From Methylobacter sp. (lineage in GTDB: Bacteria; Pseudomonadota; Gammaproteobacteria; Methylococcales; Methylomonadaceae): a DNA stretch of 64,000 nt. Below the pieces are notes generated by a model. The model searched no databases and had not been told where the DNA came from. It saw only the letters and a program-made list of their open reading frames with translations. How positions within the stretch are numbered: the stretch's first letter is position 1; each line of letters opens with the position of its first letter. The position numbers and the translations under genes are program-made. Of the stretch, positions 50,303 through 64,000 are shown one piece after another. Where the stretch lies: assembly GCA_024636505.1 (NCBI GenBank), contig JAGXGY010000059.1, positions 1-64,000 on the forward strand, given 5' to 3'.

Positions 50303-55990
<5,688 letters not shown>

Positions 55991-56166: not shown

Positions 56167-56457
56167 TTACAACAAGAGTAAGCCGTTTAAATCTAATACC
56201 GCCTTGGCGCCAATATGCTCAATACGACGCTCCCAGTTATCGCCTAAATAATAAAACCGTAAACTATCGATTGATTCATCCATGACGGCTATTAAATCAT
56301 TTTTTAATTTCGTCCATTGCGCCATATCCACTTCAATTTCAAAAACCGAATACTGTACCCGCTGTCCGTAGACAAGACATAATTTGGCTATTCTACGCAG
56401 ACGTTTCGGCCCGGTTTCACTCTTAAAACTAACATCGTAAGTCACTAAAATCATCAT
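56167..56457 (-). CDS. cas2: CRISPR-associated endonuclease Cas2
   Basis: MMILVTYDVSFKSETGPKRLRRIAKLCLVYGQRVQYSVFE. Confidence 0.96.
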   Translation of the reverse strand: MMILVTYDVSFKSETGPKRLRRIAKLCLVYGQRVQYSVFEIEVDMAQWTKLKNDLIAVMDESIDSLRFYYLGDNWERRIEHIGAKAVLDLNGLLLL

Positions 56458-56460
56458 GGT

Positions 56461-57495
56461 TTATTTCCACAAAAACGGTACATAACTATCGCAATCACCC
56501 CGTAAAAACCGCGCCAGCACTTGCGCTTGCAACCAGGGCAGTAAACCCACCGGTACTGTTTCTTCAAACCACGGGTGCATTAAGGTGTCCTGTTTACGAT
56601 CTTGCCATGCGGCCAATAAGGTTCGGCGCGGTTCATCTTTTAAGGTCACCGAACCATTGGGCCAGGTTTCAAAATCCTTAATGACCAGTTGCCGTTTGTT
56701 AATCAACGACAACACAAACCGGTCAACCATGGGTCTAAATTCTTCCGCCAAATCTAACGCTAATGACGGCCTGCCACTGCGTAATTGATGCAAAAAACCG
56801 CTGGCCGGATCAAGTCCCGTGGTTTCCAGCGCCGAACGGCAATCATGGGTCAGCAAGGTGTAACAAAATGATAACAAGGCATTAACAGGATCAGTCGGCG
56901 GCCTGCGTCTTCGGGTATCGAATTCAAAATCAGTTTGGCGTATCAAATGCTGAAACGCGCCGAAGTAGACTTGCGCTGCTTCGCCTTCGCGCCCCATCAG
57001 GGTGTCGATAGCCTTGCAATCCGCTAGCTGGGTTAAACAGCGGGTCAAACGTTTTTCAGCGGTTTGCAGCTCTTTAAGCACGCTATCGTCGGTGATTTTT
57101 TCGCCATGATCGCGCAGATAGCGCCGGAGCACATAGCGTTGGTTATAGAGCTTGCCGGTCAACATAGCTTGGGCAATGGCAACGCTTTTTTCGACATTAT
57201 GCCCGGTTAGATGCTGAGTTCTGCGTAACAATACATTACCGCTGACAGGACCCTCTACCCGCGCCAGATATTTGCCGAACATATTTAAAAAAGTAATGGT
57301 AATGCCGTTTTCAGCGCAATGCGCCATCAGGTAAGGCGAAATAGTCACTTGCCCGAAGCAAACCAATCCTTGTAATTTATGTATCGGGACACGGGCTTTG
57401 GTTTCCTTCTCAACTTTTAAGACCAGATTGTCATTGTCTTTATGCAGCCAGGCATTTTGCGTTTGAATGTAAATGACGTTTCGTAAGGGGCGCAA
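56461..57495 (-). CDS. cas1: CRISPR-associated endonuclease Cas1 (I-C)
   Basis: 344 aa; NVIYIQTQNAWLHKDNDNLVLKV; DPASGFLHQLRSGRPSLALDLAEEFRP. Confidence 0.97.
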   Translation of the reverse strand: MRPLRNVIYIQTQNAWLHKDNDNLVLKVEKETKARVPIHKLQGLVCFGQVTISPYLMAHCAENGITITFLNMFGKYLARVEGPVSGNVLLRRTQHLTGHNVEKSVAIAQAMLTGKLYNQRYVLRRYLRDHGEKITDDSVLKELQTAEKRLTRCLTQLADCKAIDTLMGREGEAAQVYFGAFQHLIRQTDFEFDTRRRRPPTDPVNALLSFCYTLLTHDCRSALETTGLDPASGFLHQLRSGRPSLALDLAEEFRPMVDRFVLSLINKRQLVIKDFETWPNGSVTLKDEPRRTLLAAWQDRKQDTLMHPWFEETVPVGLLPWLQAQVLARFLRGDCDSYVPFLWK

Positions 57496-57497
57496 GG

Positions 57498-58127
57498 TTA
57501 ATCCTCAGTGAGTTGTGCGGCCAACCAGGCGGCAGCCGATTTATGAAAACCTTTCGGGTGGCAGGGGTCGATCAGCGAGCAAGCCTTGCACTTTTTTGCC
57601 TTGTAGATAGCTTTAGGCGTGGCTTTAGTTTGCACGATGGTTCGACAGGCTAGAATAGTTTGCGCGGTTAAGTCGCGTAATTCAGCATCAAAAATAACCG
57701 GATGCCGACGACGAACTTCACCATAAAACAACGCGCCTTCCGGCACTGATACGCCGTGCATCTCTTCCAAACACAGTGCCTGGGCGCACAGTTGCACCTC
57801 ATCGGCACGGTGGGTCTTGGGCTTGCCGCGTTTGTATTCAATCGGATAGGGGATTTCTGTCCCATCCGCTTGTTTATGATATTCCACCACGTCGGCAACG
57901 CCTTCAATGCCCAGTTCTTCGTTTGCCAAACGCAATGCCCATACGGTACGAACGTCACCACGCTTTTGCTGATCGGCCTGATTGACTTTTTGATGCAACA
58001 CTTGACCTTCTGCCGTCCATTGGTTTTCCGTCCAGATATCTTCGAGTTCGATGAGGGCAAATTGGCGCGGGCAAAAAAGATAATGTTGTAGTTGTGAAAG
58101 ATAAATCGATTCCAGCGTTGACATCAT
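57498..58127 (-). CDS. cas4: CRISPR-associated exonuclease Cas4
   Basis: LSQLQHYLFCPRQFALIELEDIW; C-terminal cysteines CKACSLIDPCHP. Confidence 0.95.
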   Translation of the reverse strand: MMSTLESIYLSQLQHYLFCPRQFALIELEDIWTENQWTAEGQVLHQKVNQADQQKRGDVRTVWALRLANEELGIEGVADVVEYHKQADGTEIPYPIEYKRGKPKTHRADEVQLCAQALCLEEMHGVSVPEGALFYGEVRRRHPVIFDAELRDLTAQTILACRTIVQTKATPKAIYKAKKCKACSLIDPCHPKGFHKSAAAWLAAQLTED

Positions 58128-58188
58128 GCGTTCCCCTCTATAAATAAAAAAACCTTTCAGGTTTTAAAAACCTGAAAGGTTTAGGCGA

Positions 58189-59079
58189 TTAGAAACCGTC
58201 AATTATTTCAACTTTTAAATCTTTAAATTCCAAATTTATTTTTTCAGCATTTAAGTTTTCTAGCCGATTTAATGTTCCTTCCTTTTTCCATTCATCTATC
58301 AATTTAATCAATAATCCATGTACATTTGCTGAAGAATATTGCCCCGATTTACAGTTATGTTGCCACCAAAGGACTTTTTTCACTGCCATTGAACCTTCGG
58401 GTCTGGCTGAAGAGGCATCGCCTTCAAAGAGTTTGGGCAGAATTGCTTTAATGCTTTCTGCATCGTCATCGCTAAAGCCTGTTTTTTCGGCGAGTTGTGG
58501 GGTGATTGCGCCGTAAGTGACATAGATGGCATGGTCTACGCGGTGTTTCATACCCATGGTGTCTGAGCCTTTTTTGCTACCATCACCTTCACCGCTGACA
58601 CTTTTAGTAATTTGCGTGCTGGTGATGCTGACAGGTTCTAAGCTAAAGGCCGATTGAATGGTGACAGGGCCGCGAATGGCAATAGAAACCCCAGCAGCAT
58701 CGGCTTCTTTGCCAAAAGCAAACACTTGACCAAAGGCGCGAACATCAAACCAGTGTTCGCACGCCTTTTTAGCAGTATCGTCTTTGTTGGTTTTTTTAGC
58801 ATTAAACGCTTCTTTGCCTAAACCCACTTTGTCATCATAGGCGCGGTTTTGTAGGCTGGTCATGCCATCGGTTTTTTTCTCATCGGATTGAACAAAAATG
58901 GAATGTCCTTGTTCTTGCAAACGGTCTCGGATTTTGCGTTTTAAACAAACATCAGTCACTTCGCCATAACCGTCATAATCGGTGCGGGGGCGGTTGCCGT
59001 TTAACGGATCGCCGTTAGGATTGGCGTGATTGACGCTAAAGATGATGGCAAAGTCTATTTTGTGGCTAAGTGTGGTCAT
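58189..59079 (-). CDS. cas7c: Cas7c (Csd2)
   Basis: IIFSVNHANPNGDPLNGNRPRTDYDGYGEVTDVCLKRKIRD. Confidence 0.95.
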   Translation of the reverse strand: MTTLSHKIDFAIIFSVNHANPNGDPLNGNRPRTDYDGYGEVTDVCLKRKIRDRLQEQGHSIFVQSDEKKTDGMTSLQNRAYDDKVGLGKEAFNAKKTNKDDTAKKACEHWFDVRAFGQVFAFGKEADAAGVSIAIRGPVTIQSAFSLEPVSITSTQITKSVSGEGDGSKKGSDTMGMKHRVDHAIYVTYGAITPQLAEKTGFSDDDAESIKAILPKLFEGDASSARPEGSMAVKKVLWWQHNCKSGQYSSANVHGLLIKLIDEWKKEGTLNRLENLNAEKINLEFKDLKVEIIDGF

Positions 59080-61118
59080 TATGCATCTCCTGCTGATGTG
59101 GTTTCGTCGAAGTTTTTCGTTTGTTTGGCTTTGTAGTTTGCTGCATTTTCCGCGCTGTCTTGTTTCATTTTCTGCCGCTGGCAGTAATAGCCTAATAAAA
59201 ACTCACCTGATAACGGCGCGTTATTATTGAAATCTTCAATGGTAAAGGCACTGCTAATGGTTTCGAGTTCTTCGCGTTGATTGTTTAAAAAGCCAGTGCG
59301 TGAAACTTGTAGGCGTTGCATATAAGGGTCTAGGGCTTTGTGAATCAGCAGCCATGTTTGCGCTGGACGGTCAGCAAAACGTTGCATTAAACGGGCGGCG
59401 TTGGTTGGGCGATTTTCATCGGTGACACTTAATGCAACGCTTTCTATGCGTTCAGCAACGGCAAGCAAGCGTCCGTAAAGGTAATCACGGGAATGGTAGT
59501 TTTCATCGAGTGCCATGTTGTAAATTCTCCGTTGGGTTGAATCAGGGTTTCTGGCGTAATAGCCTTTGTAAAGAGCGCAGGTAATACCTAGGTTTTTTTC
59601 CCATAACCATTGTTCATCATTGGCGTAAGCTACGCGATTGGTGGCTTTACGCACGCAACTTTGTACTAAATCGAATGGAAAGGGATAACCATCGACAATG
59701 CACGGCATCAAGCGTTCAATGACTTTTTTCTTTAAGTTGTCCGTAACATTTTCACCATAAGCGGCTTTGGCAATGTCTCTGGGTACAGGCGAGCTAATGG
59801 GATAAATGACTTTGATTTTTGGTTTTTTGCCTGTGTCATTTTTAATTTCTTGGGTATGGCGTTGATACCATGCAAATTCGGCGTGCCATTTTTTTAAGCG
59901 TTCAAGAAAGTCATGGCTGAGTAATTCGCGGTAATACAAAATACCCATGCGCCCTGGGGTCGCAGAATCTAAGCCCATGATGATGATTTGGTCAGTTTCA
60001 TCTAGTTTTGCCGCGTAACCTGCGATGTATTTTTTTAATTTCAGTGCGTAAGCCGCGCCTAAATCTGTGCCATAGTCCAAAACCGTTTGAGTCGGTTCTT
60101 GCGTTTCTTCAACTTCGCTAAAATCGGCTTCTTCATCAAATTGTTCGCTCAGGTCTGCTAAGGGTTCGGGAATGTCTTTGCCTGAAACTGCCCATGAGAC
60201 ATAGACTTGATCGCCGTTTTTGTAGCCTTGTTTTTGAATTAACCAACTTAAAGCATTGTGGGCTTTTTGGGTGACAGTGAAACCAATGCCATTGGCCTGT
60301 TTGTCATCTAAAAATTTGCCGCGATAGGTGTAGCCACCTGAATCATTAGCAGAAATGAGTTTCGCACCATCCCCCGAATGGCGGATTTTTTTCGGGTGAT
60401 TGCTGGCTAAGACTTGTTGCTTGCCTGTGATGTAGCACAGCCCTTGTTCAGTATTGGTTGAGCTATCGAAGTCTATCCATTTTTGCTGAATTGTTTCATC
60501 CTTCCATGTGTCTATTGCAGGGTCGCCGGTTAATTCAACTGACCAACACACCAAGGCAGAGCCTTGGTCTAACACGCCTTTGTCTTTGGGTAGCAGTTTA
60601 AACAATATAGGGGCTTCGCCGTTGTCGCTGTTCCATTGGGTGAGTAACACATTGTCAACATCAACATAAACAATGTTTGCGGCGATTAAATCTTTAATCA
60701 CTGTGCCTTTTTCAATGTACTGCAAAACGGCTTTGACTTTGGCATGGCCGTATTCTGAGTCGCACCATTTTTTTAATAAATCGTGATAACTGTTGAAATA
60801 GGGCTTTTTCTTGCCGCCATACGCTTCATAATCTTTAGCGACATATTGCAATTTATCTGCTAATGGATGCGGCTCTTCCCCACTGGTTCGCCCCGCCGAT
60901 TTTTCGGTGGCGGGTAAAACAACCTGTGTTTTTTCTAACACTACCGCTTTTAGAAATTTGCCCTCGCCATCAATAGTGATGTTGATATGGGCATTTTGTT
61001 GCGTGTGGCTAATCGGCACTAATGGCGAGTATTTTTTCTTGTCATCATCAGAAGGCGGTGGTTCATCAAGCAATACCGCTGCTTCGTAAGTCTGATAGAG
61101 TTTTTCCATCCAGCTCAT
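59079..61118 (-). CDS. cas8c: Cas8c (Csd1)
   Basis: 679 aa, position between cas7c and cas5c; Csd1-like SDDDKKKYSPLVPISHTQQNAHINITIDGEGKF. Confidence 0.93.
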   Translation of the reverse strand: MSWMEKLYQTYEAAVLLDEPPPSDDDKKKYSPLVPISHTQQNAHINITIDGEGKFLKAVVLEKTQVVLPATEKSAGRTSGEEPHPLADKLQYVAKDYEAYGGKKKPYFNSYHDLLKKWCDSEYGHAKVKAVLQYIEKGTVIKDLIAANIVYVDVDNVLLTQWNSDNGEAPILFKLLPKDKGVLDQGSALVCWSVELTGDPAIDTWKDETIQQKWIDFDSSTNTEQGLCYITGKQQVLASNHPKKIRHSGDGAKLISANDSGGYTYRGKFLDDKQANGIGFTVTQKAHNALSWLIQKQGYKNGDQVYVSWAVSGKDIPEPLADLSEQFDEEADFSEVEETQEPTQTVLDYGTDLGAAYALKLKKYIAGYAAKLDETDQIIIMGLDSATPGRMGILYYRELLSHDFLERLKKWHAEFAWYQRHTQEIKNDTGKKPKIKVIYPISSPVPRDIAKAAYGENVTDNLKKKVIERLMPCIVDGYPFPFDLVQSCVRKATNRVAYANDEQWLWEKNLGITCALYKGYYARNPDSTQRRIYNMALDENYHSRDYLYGRLLAVAERIESVALSVTDENRPTNAARLMQRFADRPAQTWLLIHKALDPYMQRLQVSRTGFLNNQREELETISSAFTIEDFNNNAPLSGEFLLGYYCQRQKMKQDSAENAANYKAKQTKNFDETTSAGDA

Positions 61119-61825
61119 AATTCAGCCTCCTCGGTTTCGACATCTTTTAAATTGGTGCCGATACCGAACGGTTTAACCGACATGGGGCGCACAATGCGGC
61201 GGCGGGTGCATTCATCTGGTCTGGGGAATTCCAAAATGCCTTTTTTTAAGGTCGCTTGCCAAAACAGGCTTTCTAAATTCTCCCCGCCCGTCTCGTCTGG
61301 ATAAGCGAAACTATGAAACATTAAACCAAAGGGTATGTCAGGCGTTTCATCATAAACACCTTCGCCTGTTCCAAATTCACACGGTTCAACGTAGGCTTGG
61401 CAATCGCGTGTGCCTAAAAAAATATCTTGTCTGCCACCTTTTACTAAGGCACGTTGACTCATGCTAGAATGTTTTTTTTCGTTCCGATCTTGTTGTAATT
61501 CGGGGCGGTGTTCATTCCATTCAAAATGGGCTTCAACCTGGTATTCAACATCGCGTAAAAAGGTATAAATCGCCAAGCTATTGCCGCTTGCATTCCAGAG
61601 CAACGGTTTTGTGCCTTTGGTTTGAGTGCGTAAAGGCTTCATGATTCGTACTCTATCAACGTGCCAAATCAGCGTTGGTTTCCAATAAATGGATTTGAGC
61701 ACGCCTTTGAGGGCTTCGTAAGTGGGCAGGTGATAAGAGCATTTTTCACCGCCGACTTTGGTGATGGGGTCGGTAAATAATGCGTACCGTCCTCGTAATT
61801 TAAAACTAATGCGGTTGTTATCCAT
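61115..61825 (-). CDS. cas5c: Cas5c (Csd5)
   Basis: FKLRGRYALFTDPITKVGGEKCSYHLPTYEALKGVLKSIYWKPTLIWHVDRVRIM; AAGGAG SD upstream. Confidence 0.95.
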   Translation of the reverse strand: MDNNRISFKLRGRYALFTDPITKVGGEKCSYHLPTYEALKGVLKSIYWKPTLIWHVDRVRIMKPLRTQTKGTKPLLWNASGNSLAIYTFLRDVEYQVEAHFEWNEHRPELQQDRNEKKHSSMSQRALVKGGRQDIFLGTRDCQAYVEPCEFGTGEGVYDETPDIPFGLMFHSFAYPDETGGENLESLFWQATLKKGILEFPRPDECTRRRIVRPMSVKPFGIGTNLKDVETEEAEL

Positions 61826-61912
61826 TGAAACTCCTTGAGGGCGTTATTTGTTTTCACAACTGAATAATGTTGCAAAATAATGGTTATTTATGGATGAGTG
61901 CAGATGTTGATT

Positions 61913-62050
61913 GATACTGCCGATTTAACATCGGCAATATCAGTTTTAAATAAGCACTAACCCTAACCACAAATGGTTTCAATCCACGTCTTCATGTTTC
62001 AATTTACATCTTCACAAGAAGAACGACATCACCTTTAAATTAAAGATGAT
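61913..62050 (-). ncRNA. Candidate crRNA-like RNA: psiR1 (62027-61996), psiR2 (61995-61976), 34-nt spacer-like (61975-61942), 12-bp hairpin (61941-61913)
   Basis: Minus strand: GTCGTTCTTCTTGTGAAGATGTAAATTGAAAC-ATGAAGACGTGGATTGAAAC-CATTTGTGGTTAGGGTTAGTGCTTATTTAAAACT-GATATTGCCGAT-GTTAA-ATCGGCAGTATC. Confidence 0.55.
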
Positions 62051-62056
62051 GAATTA

Positions 62057-62085
62057 AGAATACGTTAGCCAATTACCGCAGTCAA
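62057..62085 (-). promoter_or_regulatory. Sigma70-like promoter TTGACT-17-TATTCT
   Basis: Minus strand TTGACTGCGGTAATTGGCTAACGTATTCT, about 30 nt upstream of psiR1 and upstream of cas5c. Confidence 0.6.
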
Positions 62086-62114
62086 TTTATTTCTTTCATT
62101 TATGGTTATGGTTA

Positions 62115-64000
62115 TTACAAACAATCAAGCCCGCGTTTACTGACAAGTTCAGTTGACAAGCCAAACTCAGGGCTGTAATAGCATTCATCCAAATAAAACA
62201 CGCCTTCACCTTGAATTTCAACAATAGCACCCTGTTCACGCAATTTCTGCCAAACATTCGGAAATACATTGACGCTGTATTTTTGCGCTTTTCTCAAACA
62301 GCTATAAAAAGCCTTGGCTTCAAATTTTTTTGATAGGCCACACAATTCGGTAATCAAGGATTGCCCTTCTTCATAAGGCACAATCACTGAATAAGTCGGC
62401 GCATCTATGGCTTTAAAGGCTTTGCCTGCGGTCATGAAGGATTGCTTTAAATACAACGGCGCGCTTATGCCGTTATTCCATTTATTTTCACTGAGCAGAT
62501 TTAATAAAGTGTCGTTTCGTTCTGCTACATTGTTTGACACGGGATAGACCATTTGATCCGCACGTTCATAAAAATAGTAGTTGAAATATAACGCGATGGC
62601 TTCGGGGGCTAATAAATCTTGTCCTTTGTATTGTCTAAAGACGGTTTCAGTTTTCTTTTTCCCTTCTTTAATATCAATCAATTGGTCAATGGGTTCTTCG
62701 GCAGGGTTAATGACATGAACTTCGGCTTTATCTAACATAGCATTGCGATTGCAACGTCCCGCCGCTTGGGCAATGGAATCCAACCCTGCCAGAAAGCGAA
62801 TTACGCTGGCAAAATCTATATCGACACCTGCTTCAATCAATTGGGTACTGAAACACAACACAGGTTTTTTATCTATTAAACGGGCTTTGATGGTATTAAA
62901 AATATCGGTGCGGTGTGCGGAACATTGATGGGTGCTGAGGTGAAATACGCTGTCTTTATCTACTTTACTTTCACAATCCCGATACAGGGCTTCTGCCCAT
63001 GCTTTGGTATTGACGATGACTAAACAACTACCTTTTTCTGCGAATTCAGAAAGCGCGAATTCAGCAATTTCTTCTTTTGACCAACCTTCGGACTTCGTTT
63101 TATCCAAAATATCAACGCGCTTGAGTTGTTCAAAAAGTTTTTTAACGTCACCTATTAATTCATTTCCTTCGGGAATGATGAGCTGACCTTTTTCCGGCGT
63201 TTTGAGTTTGTCCAATAACGGTTGGGTTGCTGTGCATAACACAGCGGTTGTGTGGGTATAAGTCGTTAAAAAATTCAGGGCGTTACAAAATAAATGCGTG
63301 CAGTTAATCGGTAAAGTTTGAATTTCATCAAAAATAATTACGCTGTTTGCTAATTGATGCAAACGCCGCACGCCGCGTGTGCCGCCGTCAAATAAGGTTT
63401 CTAAAAATTGCACCATCGTTGTCATGACGATAGGCGCGTCCCAATTTTCAGCGACTAATTTACTGTGCCACGTTTGCTGTTCGGGTTCTAAATTGGAATG
63501 ATGTTCAAGTACCCACGCATAATCTTCACCAACACGTTGAATCGCTTTACGAATCGCCTCGGCATTTTGTTCAATAATGGAGGTGTAAGGAATAATATAG
63601 AAAATACGTTCTAATTTATGCTCTTTGGCATGATGCAGCGCAAAGCGCAAACTAGCGTATGTTTTACCACCGCCTGTTGGAACAGTTAAGCTATAAATGC
63701 CTTGCGGCTGTTCAGATCGGTTTTTGCAAGTGTCGGAAATGTCGCGGCGTATTTGATTTAATCGAAGCGTTTTTTCGGGTAACTGTTCGTGCTTACTTTC
63801 GATCTCATTTTGTTGTTCAACCAAGAAAAGTTCCAAGCGATTTATCGCAACATCCCAAGCTACAGGTTGATTACGATGATTTTTCTTTTCTGGCATTTCA
63901 AAATCAGCACTGTCAATACGGTCAGCATCAATCAAGCAACTGAATAAAAAACGAGTTAAAAAACCGAAATAAAATTGCCTGATGATTTCACTTTGCTGAG
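62115..64000 (-). CDS. cas3: Cas3 helicase-nuclease (partial; N-terminus beyond window)
   Basis: VPTGGGKTYASLRFALHHA, IFDEIQTLP, ATQPLL, AAGRCNRN; frame open to the window end (FGFLTRFLFSCLIDADR). Confidence 0.95.
   Translation of the reverse strand, partial: QQSEIIRQFYFGFLTRFLFSCLIDADRIDSADFEMPEKKNHRNQPVAWDVAINRLELFLVEQQNEIESKHEQLPEKTLRLNQIRRDISDTCKNRSEQPQGIYSLTVPTGGGKTYASLRFALHHAKEHKLERIFYIIPYTSIIEQNAEAIRKAIQRVGEDYAWVLEHHSNLEPEQQTWHSKLVAENWDAPIVMTTMVQFLETLFDGGTRGVRRLHQLANSVIIFDEIQTLPINCTHLFCNALNFLTTYTHTTAVLCTATQPLLDKLKTPEKGQLIIPEGNELIGDVKKLFEQLKRVDILDKTKSEGWSKEEIAEFALSEFAEKGSCLVIVNTKAWAEALYRDCESKVDKDSVFHLSTHQCSAHRTDIFNTIKARLIDKKPVLCFSTQLIEAGVDIDFASVIRFLAGLDSIAQAAGRCNRNAMLDKAEVHVINPAEEPIDQLIDIKEGKKKTETVFRQYKGQDLLAPEAIALYFNYYFYERADQMVYPVSNNVAERNDTLLNLLSENKWNNGISAPLYLKQSFMTAGKAFKAIDAPTYSVIVPYEEGQSLITELCGLSKKFEAKAFYSCLRKAQKYSVNVFPNVWQKLREQGAIVEIQGEGVFYLDECYYSPEFGLSTELVSKRGLDCL

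Follow-up and report, generated by a model that had tools for sequence, protein, structure and literature searches.

A candidate CreR-like guide RNA in the leader of a type I-C cas operon of Methylobacter, predicted to repress its own promoter

Type I-C is one of the commonest CRISPR subtypes, and Cas5c processes crRNA in it (PMC7684278). The window analysed here, a stretch of 64,000 nucleotides from Methylobacter sp. (contig JAGXGY010000059.1), carries a locus of this subtype, with cas3, cas5c, cas8c, cas7c, cas4, cas1 and cas2 all present according to PADLOC and Pfam models. The array lies downstream of the cas operon; its repeat, GTCGCGCCCCGCGTGGGCGCGTGGATTGAAAC, is invariant across 88 copies, and its 87 spacers are 32–35 nt long. 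On the minus strand, the gap that runs from the cas3 stop (62115) to the cas5c start (61825) contains, in order, a promoter, a 5' hairpin, a degenerate repeat, a second handle, a spacer, and a hairpin. The features of the locus were as follows.

62115–63998, minus strand: cas3, 3' part, with its start outside the window (profile matches)
62094–62118, plus strand: target, comprising PAM TTT (62094–62096) and protospacer CATTTATGGTTATGGTTATTAC (62097–62118), 18/22 identical to the spacer
62057–62085, minus strand: promoter of sigma-70 type, TTGACT-17-TATTCT, serving both the guide RNA and the cas5c operon; same element in the related loci L012 and L011
62027–62051, minus strand: 5' hairpin of 11 bp at the predicted transcript start (folding)
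61996–62027, minus strand: degenerate repeat (psi-repeat) GTCGTTCTTCTTGTGAAGATGTAAATTGAAAC, matching the array repeat at 19/32 positions and forming a 5-bp stem of its own, TCTTC/GAAGA
61976–61995, minus strand: second handle ATGAAGACGTGGATTGAAAC, ending in CGTGGATTGAAAC, a duplicated 3' half of the repeat (sequence)
61943–61975, minus strand: guide (spacer) CATTTGTGGTTAGGGTTAGTGCTTATTTAAAAC, 33 nt (sequence)
61912–61942, minus strand: 13-bp hairpin replacing the second repeat (RNAfold)
61115–61825, minus strand: cas5c, first gene 3' of the guide RNA; encodes the I-C Cascade subunit that processes crRNA (PADLOC Cas5c, 6.8e-72)
56167–61118, minus strand: cas8c, cas7c, cas4, cas1 and cas2, downstream of cas5c and on the same strand (PADLOC)
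50303–55990, minus strand: CRISPR array, 88 identical repeats of 32 nt (sequence)

A first-pass annotation had described a crRNA-like RNA gene in this gap, beginning with a repeat-like 32-mer. That 32-mer is present at 62027–61996; its raw identity of 19/32 ties with the best chance 32-mers of the window, and it is distinguished by its exact ATTGAAAC end and its kept stem. Because the raw identity of this first repeat is indecisive, the case is carried by the target and the relatives. The partial repeat sharing the end of the array repeat was confirmed at 61995–61976. The 13 nt at its end agree exactly with the array repeat; the genome assembly has 89 copies of this 13-mer, of which the array accounts for 88. 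This second handle is a near-tandem copy of the 20 nt preceding it, and it is likely the 5' handle of the mature RNA. The unique stretch that follows (61975–61943) has the length of an array spacer, as had been claimed, although it measures 33 nt and not 34. The strong hairpin was also recovered (61942–61912; −18.9 kcal/mol, z −6.9), with 13 bp by RNAfold instead of 12; the fold of the whole guide RNA had a z of −5.3. An Rfam search of the element gave no match. We rejected an intrinsic terminator as the identity of the hairpin, because no U-tract follows it in the window, L012, or L011.

The proposed resemblance to a mature crRNA holds for the order of handle, spacer, and hairpin, but the hairpin is not simply equal to a 3' repeat stem. 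One solved I-C Cascade was reported without a 3' crRNA stem-loop (PMC7684278), and one repeat-spacer unit with no second repeat suffices for I-C repression (PMC10865793). It is plausible that the hairpin substitutes for the 3' repeat stem, but no substitute is needed. Ordinary array units have conserved repeats on both sides of the spacer; here the first repeat is 19/32 identical and the second is a hairpin of unrelated sequence. What lies beside the cas genes, outside the array, is a crRNA-like unit with degenerate repeats, as in CreR.

Both the promoter (62085–62057) and the target (62094–62118) lie beyond the region that the first-pass annotation covered (61913–62050). Type I Cascade tolerates a mismatch at every sixth position, for example position 6. 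The start of the spacer, CATTTGTGGTTAGGGTTAGTGC, was identical to the protospacer, CATTTATGGTTATGGTTATTAC, at 18 of 22 positions, with mismatches at 6, 13, 19, and 21. A full 33-nt protospacer would extend to 62129, and past 62118 just 3/11 positions match, which is the chance level. The target overlaps the cas3 stop codon; its PAM faces the promoter and ends 8 nt from the −35 box. The targeted promoter reads into the guide unit and then into the cas5c operon, so the guide has partial complementarity to the promoter of the operon it belongs to, with a PAM adjoining, which is another trait of CreR. Several details count against a CreR-like reading: the PAM of the window is TTT and differs from the TTC of the other loci, the target sits just upstream of the −35 box, not over it, the first repeat is very degenerate, and the nearest Cas5c relative lacks the unit. 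The I-C system of Neisseria lactamica accepts both TTC and TTT (PMC10865793).

The first 17 nt of the guide matched the target at 15/17 positions, the best match in the neighbourhood. Within the window locus, 300 dinucleotide-preserving shuffles of the guide reached at most 14/17 and the guides of six other loci at most 13/17, and none of the 87 array spacers exceeded 12/17 within 61100–63000. The seed pattern had one zero-mismatch match in the whole genome, namely the target at the promoter.

The Cas5c relatives came from genome contigs as well as from the order and class. Comparison of related cas3-cas5c regions had been named in the first-pass annotation as a check. Two loci of Methylococcales, L012 and L011 (identical in L038), keep the layout of the window, with different spacers and matching targets: the L012 guide is TATTAATGGTTTGGGTT and its target TTC-TATTATTGGTTTGGGTA, and the L011 guide is ACTATTGATAGTATTTA and its target TTC-ACTATAGAAAGTATTTA. 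A TTGAC[TC]-17-TATT[CA]T element stands at the corresponding place in both. In all three loci the promoter is on the PAM side, the distance from PAM to −35 box is exactly 8 nt, and position 6 is mismatched. Guide and target were altered together in these relatives, which is the outcome predicted by selection on pairing. The loop-proximal part of the hairpin, GCCGA..TTAAATCGGC, is common to the window and L012, and the segment TCAAATCGGC to the window and L011; on sequence, the three hairpins look homologous. A DNA search with the whole element in 311 genomes of the order found only the genome of L012 clearly related (1.7e-6), and the remaining matches were mostly weak and scattered. The nearest Cas5c relative (L037/L117, Methylocucumis oryzae, 90% identical) has a cas3-cas5c gap of 17 nt and no guide unit. 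Therefore, the unit is not universal, and the element comes and goes quickly. In L011/L038, a ParD-like antitoxin ORF (PF11903, 8e-15) lies between the guide RNA and cas5c, inside the cas operon; no toxin partner was seen between this ORF and cas5c.

I-C loci were then surveyed more widely. In a first scan of 126 loci, freeing positions 6 and 12 recovered 7 loci, and most other pairs of free positions recovered 2. Without a PAM requirement, a repeat-like handle (judged by eye) with a local target was found in 15 loci; the PAM was TTT in the window and TTC in the remaining 14. Among the 14 loci that had three mismatches or fewer, 13 of the 20 mismatches at positions 1–12 fell at 6 or 12 (P 2e-6; tally made by hand), tolerated positions that agree with the regulatory role suggested for the guide by the first-pass annotation. 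The true handle with a local target and PAM TTC occurred in 13/144 distinct loci, and six control handles gave 0–1. Scan matches in L015/L040, L045, L051, and L104 were set aside, as they had no repeat stem and their PAM was not TTC. The cas3-cas5c gap is usually <60 nt. Setting aside L072 (1932 nt), every first-clade locus with a gap >200 nt contained a guide unit.

Most such loci have a small, mostly hydrophobic ORF under the targeted promoter (e.g., L023, L076, L113, L030, L031, and L142), and these units therefore resemble CreTA/CrePA. Repeat-like guides were found in the I-C loci L023 (=L050, Ca. Methylobacter oryzae), L064 (Alteromonas sp. a30), L076 (Burkholderiales UBA6064), and L113 (Neisseria elongata, with the unit between cas4 and cas1). 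Their TTC-flanked target abuts the promoter of an ORF of 33–63 aa, none with a trustworthy Pfam match, and the four units are putative CreTA/CrePA-like modules in type I-C. In a second, distant I-C Cas5c clade (L030, L031, L125, L136, L142, L148, L150, and L168), the guide-plus-small-ORF arrangement occupies the cas3-cas5c gap. The ORFs there apparently form two groups, one with ..GK.PR.. and a hydrophobic tail and one with ..RF[YW]..L, hydrophobic. L030/L031 also carry a further degenerate repeat, which reaches the cas5c start. In L023, about 120–330 nt upstream of cas5c, the loop of a degenerate repeat is apparently interrupted by an inverted-repeat element of about 200 nt, with both stem arms (GTCCTTTCT / AGAAAGGAC) intact. 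L118 (G285) has two degenerate repeats at 260–415. The second stops a single base short of the cas5c start codon, and cleavage by Cas5c there could therefore affect the translation of cas5c itself. No target for the L118 guide was present on the contig, whose end is 414 nt upstream of cas5c.

Considering these neighbours, the window unit might be a CreTA-type addiction module, in which the guide represses the promoter of a small-RNA or mini-ORF toxin and cas5c is merely downstream. A degenerate-repeat guide RNA with a promoter target is common to both, the small, mostly hydrophobic ORF accompanies the targeted promoter in L023, L064, L076, L113, and the eight second-clade loci, and a five-codon ORF (ATG TCG TTC TTC TTG TGA) lies within the first repeat of the window. 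Since small ORFs seem to be what most I-C Cre-like units guard, the unit may have a toxin-type origin or function. However, the five-codon ORF is not conserved, and the −10 box is just ~30–50 nt from the repeat in the window, L012, and L011, with no conserved ORF there. Between promoter and guide, no ORF of at least 20 aa was found except ones inside or overlapping the guide, none of them conserved. The three loci have no small ORF of the kind described above; their promoter leads first into the guide and from there into the cas operon. A targeted promoter with no toxin gene under it is characteristic of CreR, whereas CreTA/CrePA has a toxin there. The spacing differs as well: the three CreR-like units have 8 nt between PAM and −35 box, versus 0–1 nt in the first-clade units with an ORF (n=4), and 98–118 nt between PAM and guide, versus 224–454 nt in co-directional ORF units. 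With few cases to compare, this difference may correspond to tight repression for toxins and looser feedback on cas genes. On this evidence, we consider an addiction module in the window unlikely.

Other origins appear less probable still. Degenerate repeats, a single spacer, and a closest relative without the unit are what a decaying fragment of an ordinary array would leave, its spacer resembling nearby DNA by accident. But the PAM-flanked local target co-varies in relatives, the position in the cas3-cas5c gap recurs in unrelated loci, control handles were found in 0–1 of the 144 loci, and the hairpin is stable, which makes decay quite improbable. We give slightly less credence to an RNA-level attenuator, in which the end of cas3 would pair with the guide region in cas3 read-through transcripts; one possible transcript would indeed carry target and guide as inverted copies at a distance of about 120 nt. 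This would leave the PAM, the repeat handle, and the mismatches at positions 6 and 12 unexplained, position 6 would give an A-A pair in the RNA of L012 and a U-U pair in that of L011, and L064 and L076 arrange guide and target differently yet keep the PAM. It is hardly credible that the unit works as a spacer directed at a mobile element and matches its own locus fortuitously: the spacer length is in the normal range, but its first 17 nt had no exact match in the viral contigs of one viral collection, and chance would not put self-matches at one and the same site in relatives.

Taken together, the unit is probably a CreR-like cas-regulating guide RNA of type I-C, through which Cascade would repress its own effector operon. 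As the guide matches the operon's own promoter and not a virus, the defence machinery very probably lowers its own production. The first-pass suggestion that the RNA regulates rather than defends is consistent with the PAM-flanked target at the cas promoter, its co-variation in relatives, and the lack of an exact match to the first 17 nt in that viral collection. Transcription from 62085–62057 would yield a leader with the degenerate repeat, guide, and hairpin, followed by cas5c-cas8c-cas7-cas4-cas1-cas2. Cas5c probably cuts this leader at the repeat stem, and Cascade would load the released RNA and bind the DNA just upstream of the −35 box, where the target lies by sequence. Bound Cascade should hinder RNA polymerase at the promoter and perhaps block cas3 read-through. 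Because the match is short, ending at about 22 nt, it should favour binding over cleavage by Cas3, giving repression without cleavage. By analogy with CreR, this negative feedback would keep Cascade low when free Cascade is plentiful, and relax when crRNAs or anti-CRISPRs occupy it. cas3, upstream of the promoter, would escape the loop.

Our confidence is evenly balanced on a wider hypothesis, that the cas mRNA leader is the guide precursor and Cas5c cuts its own messenger to free a promoter-silencing guide, coupling Cascade level, mRNA processing, and transcription, with the cas3-cas5c gap of I-C as a recurrent site for guides that are CreR-like (cas) or CreTA/CrePA-like (small membrane toxins). 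If true, a leader guide of the Cascade operon would explain low effector levels and a response to anti-CRISPRs. The proposed circuit is compact, with a known PAM, a defined promoter, and a predicted seed. The case also cautions against annotating ectopic repeats between cas genes as array debris, and other I-C loci of the survey offer a set of guarded small ORFs. The first-pass annotation knew of no I-C example in this position, and we likewise found no report of CreR, CreTA, or natural RNA-guided autoregulation for I-C in the open literature, subscription papers being outside this coverage.

CreR (cas-regulating RNA) was reportedly described by Liu et al. 2023 in Cell Host Microbe. It is crRNA-like, arises from a degenerate mini-CRISPR next to cas genes, is partly complementary to a cas promoter, and has no toxin (PMC13131331, PMC12948488, PMC12737573); it is reported for I-B, I-E, and V-A (PMC13131331). 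The window unit is alike in these general traits, being degenerate, crRNA-like, beside cas genes, partly matched to a cas promoter, and without a toxin. It differs in its subtype, I-C; in the guide, which lies in the leader of the targeted operon, inside the cas cluster after cas3; and in the unrelated hairpin that takes the place of the second repeat, its repression being predicted from sequence. CreTA/CrePA, in which a CreA antitoxin guide is paired with a CreT RNA or CreP protein toxin, shares the ectopic degenerate repeats and the short PAM-flanked promoter match, and its layout fits several I-C relatives of the survey. In contrast, the window appears to have neither a toxin-like ORF nor a separate toxin transcript, and its promoter reads into cas5c. 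Tracr-L is a natural guide through which Cas9 represses its own promoter. The combination of a CRISPR effector and a natural guide that represses the effector's own promoter is the same as that predicted for the window, but tracr-L is of type II and tracrRNA-based, unrelated in sequence and machinery. In I-C CRISPRi, one repeat plus a spacer, PAM TTC/TTT, and engineered Cascade without Cas3 give repression at promoter sites (PMC10865793). The window has the same Cascade type, accepted PAM, and one repeat plus spacer, but is natural and has Cas3. Compared with known CreR, this CreR-like unit would therefore be new in its subtype, its leader-embedded guide, and its single repeat with a hairpin.
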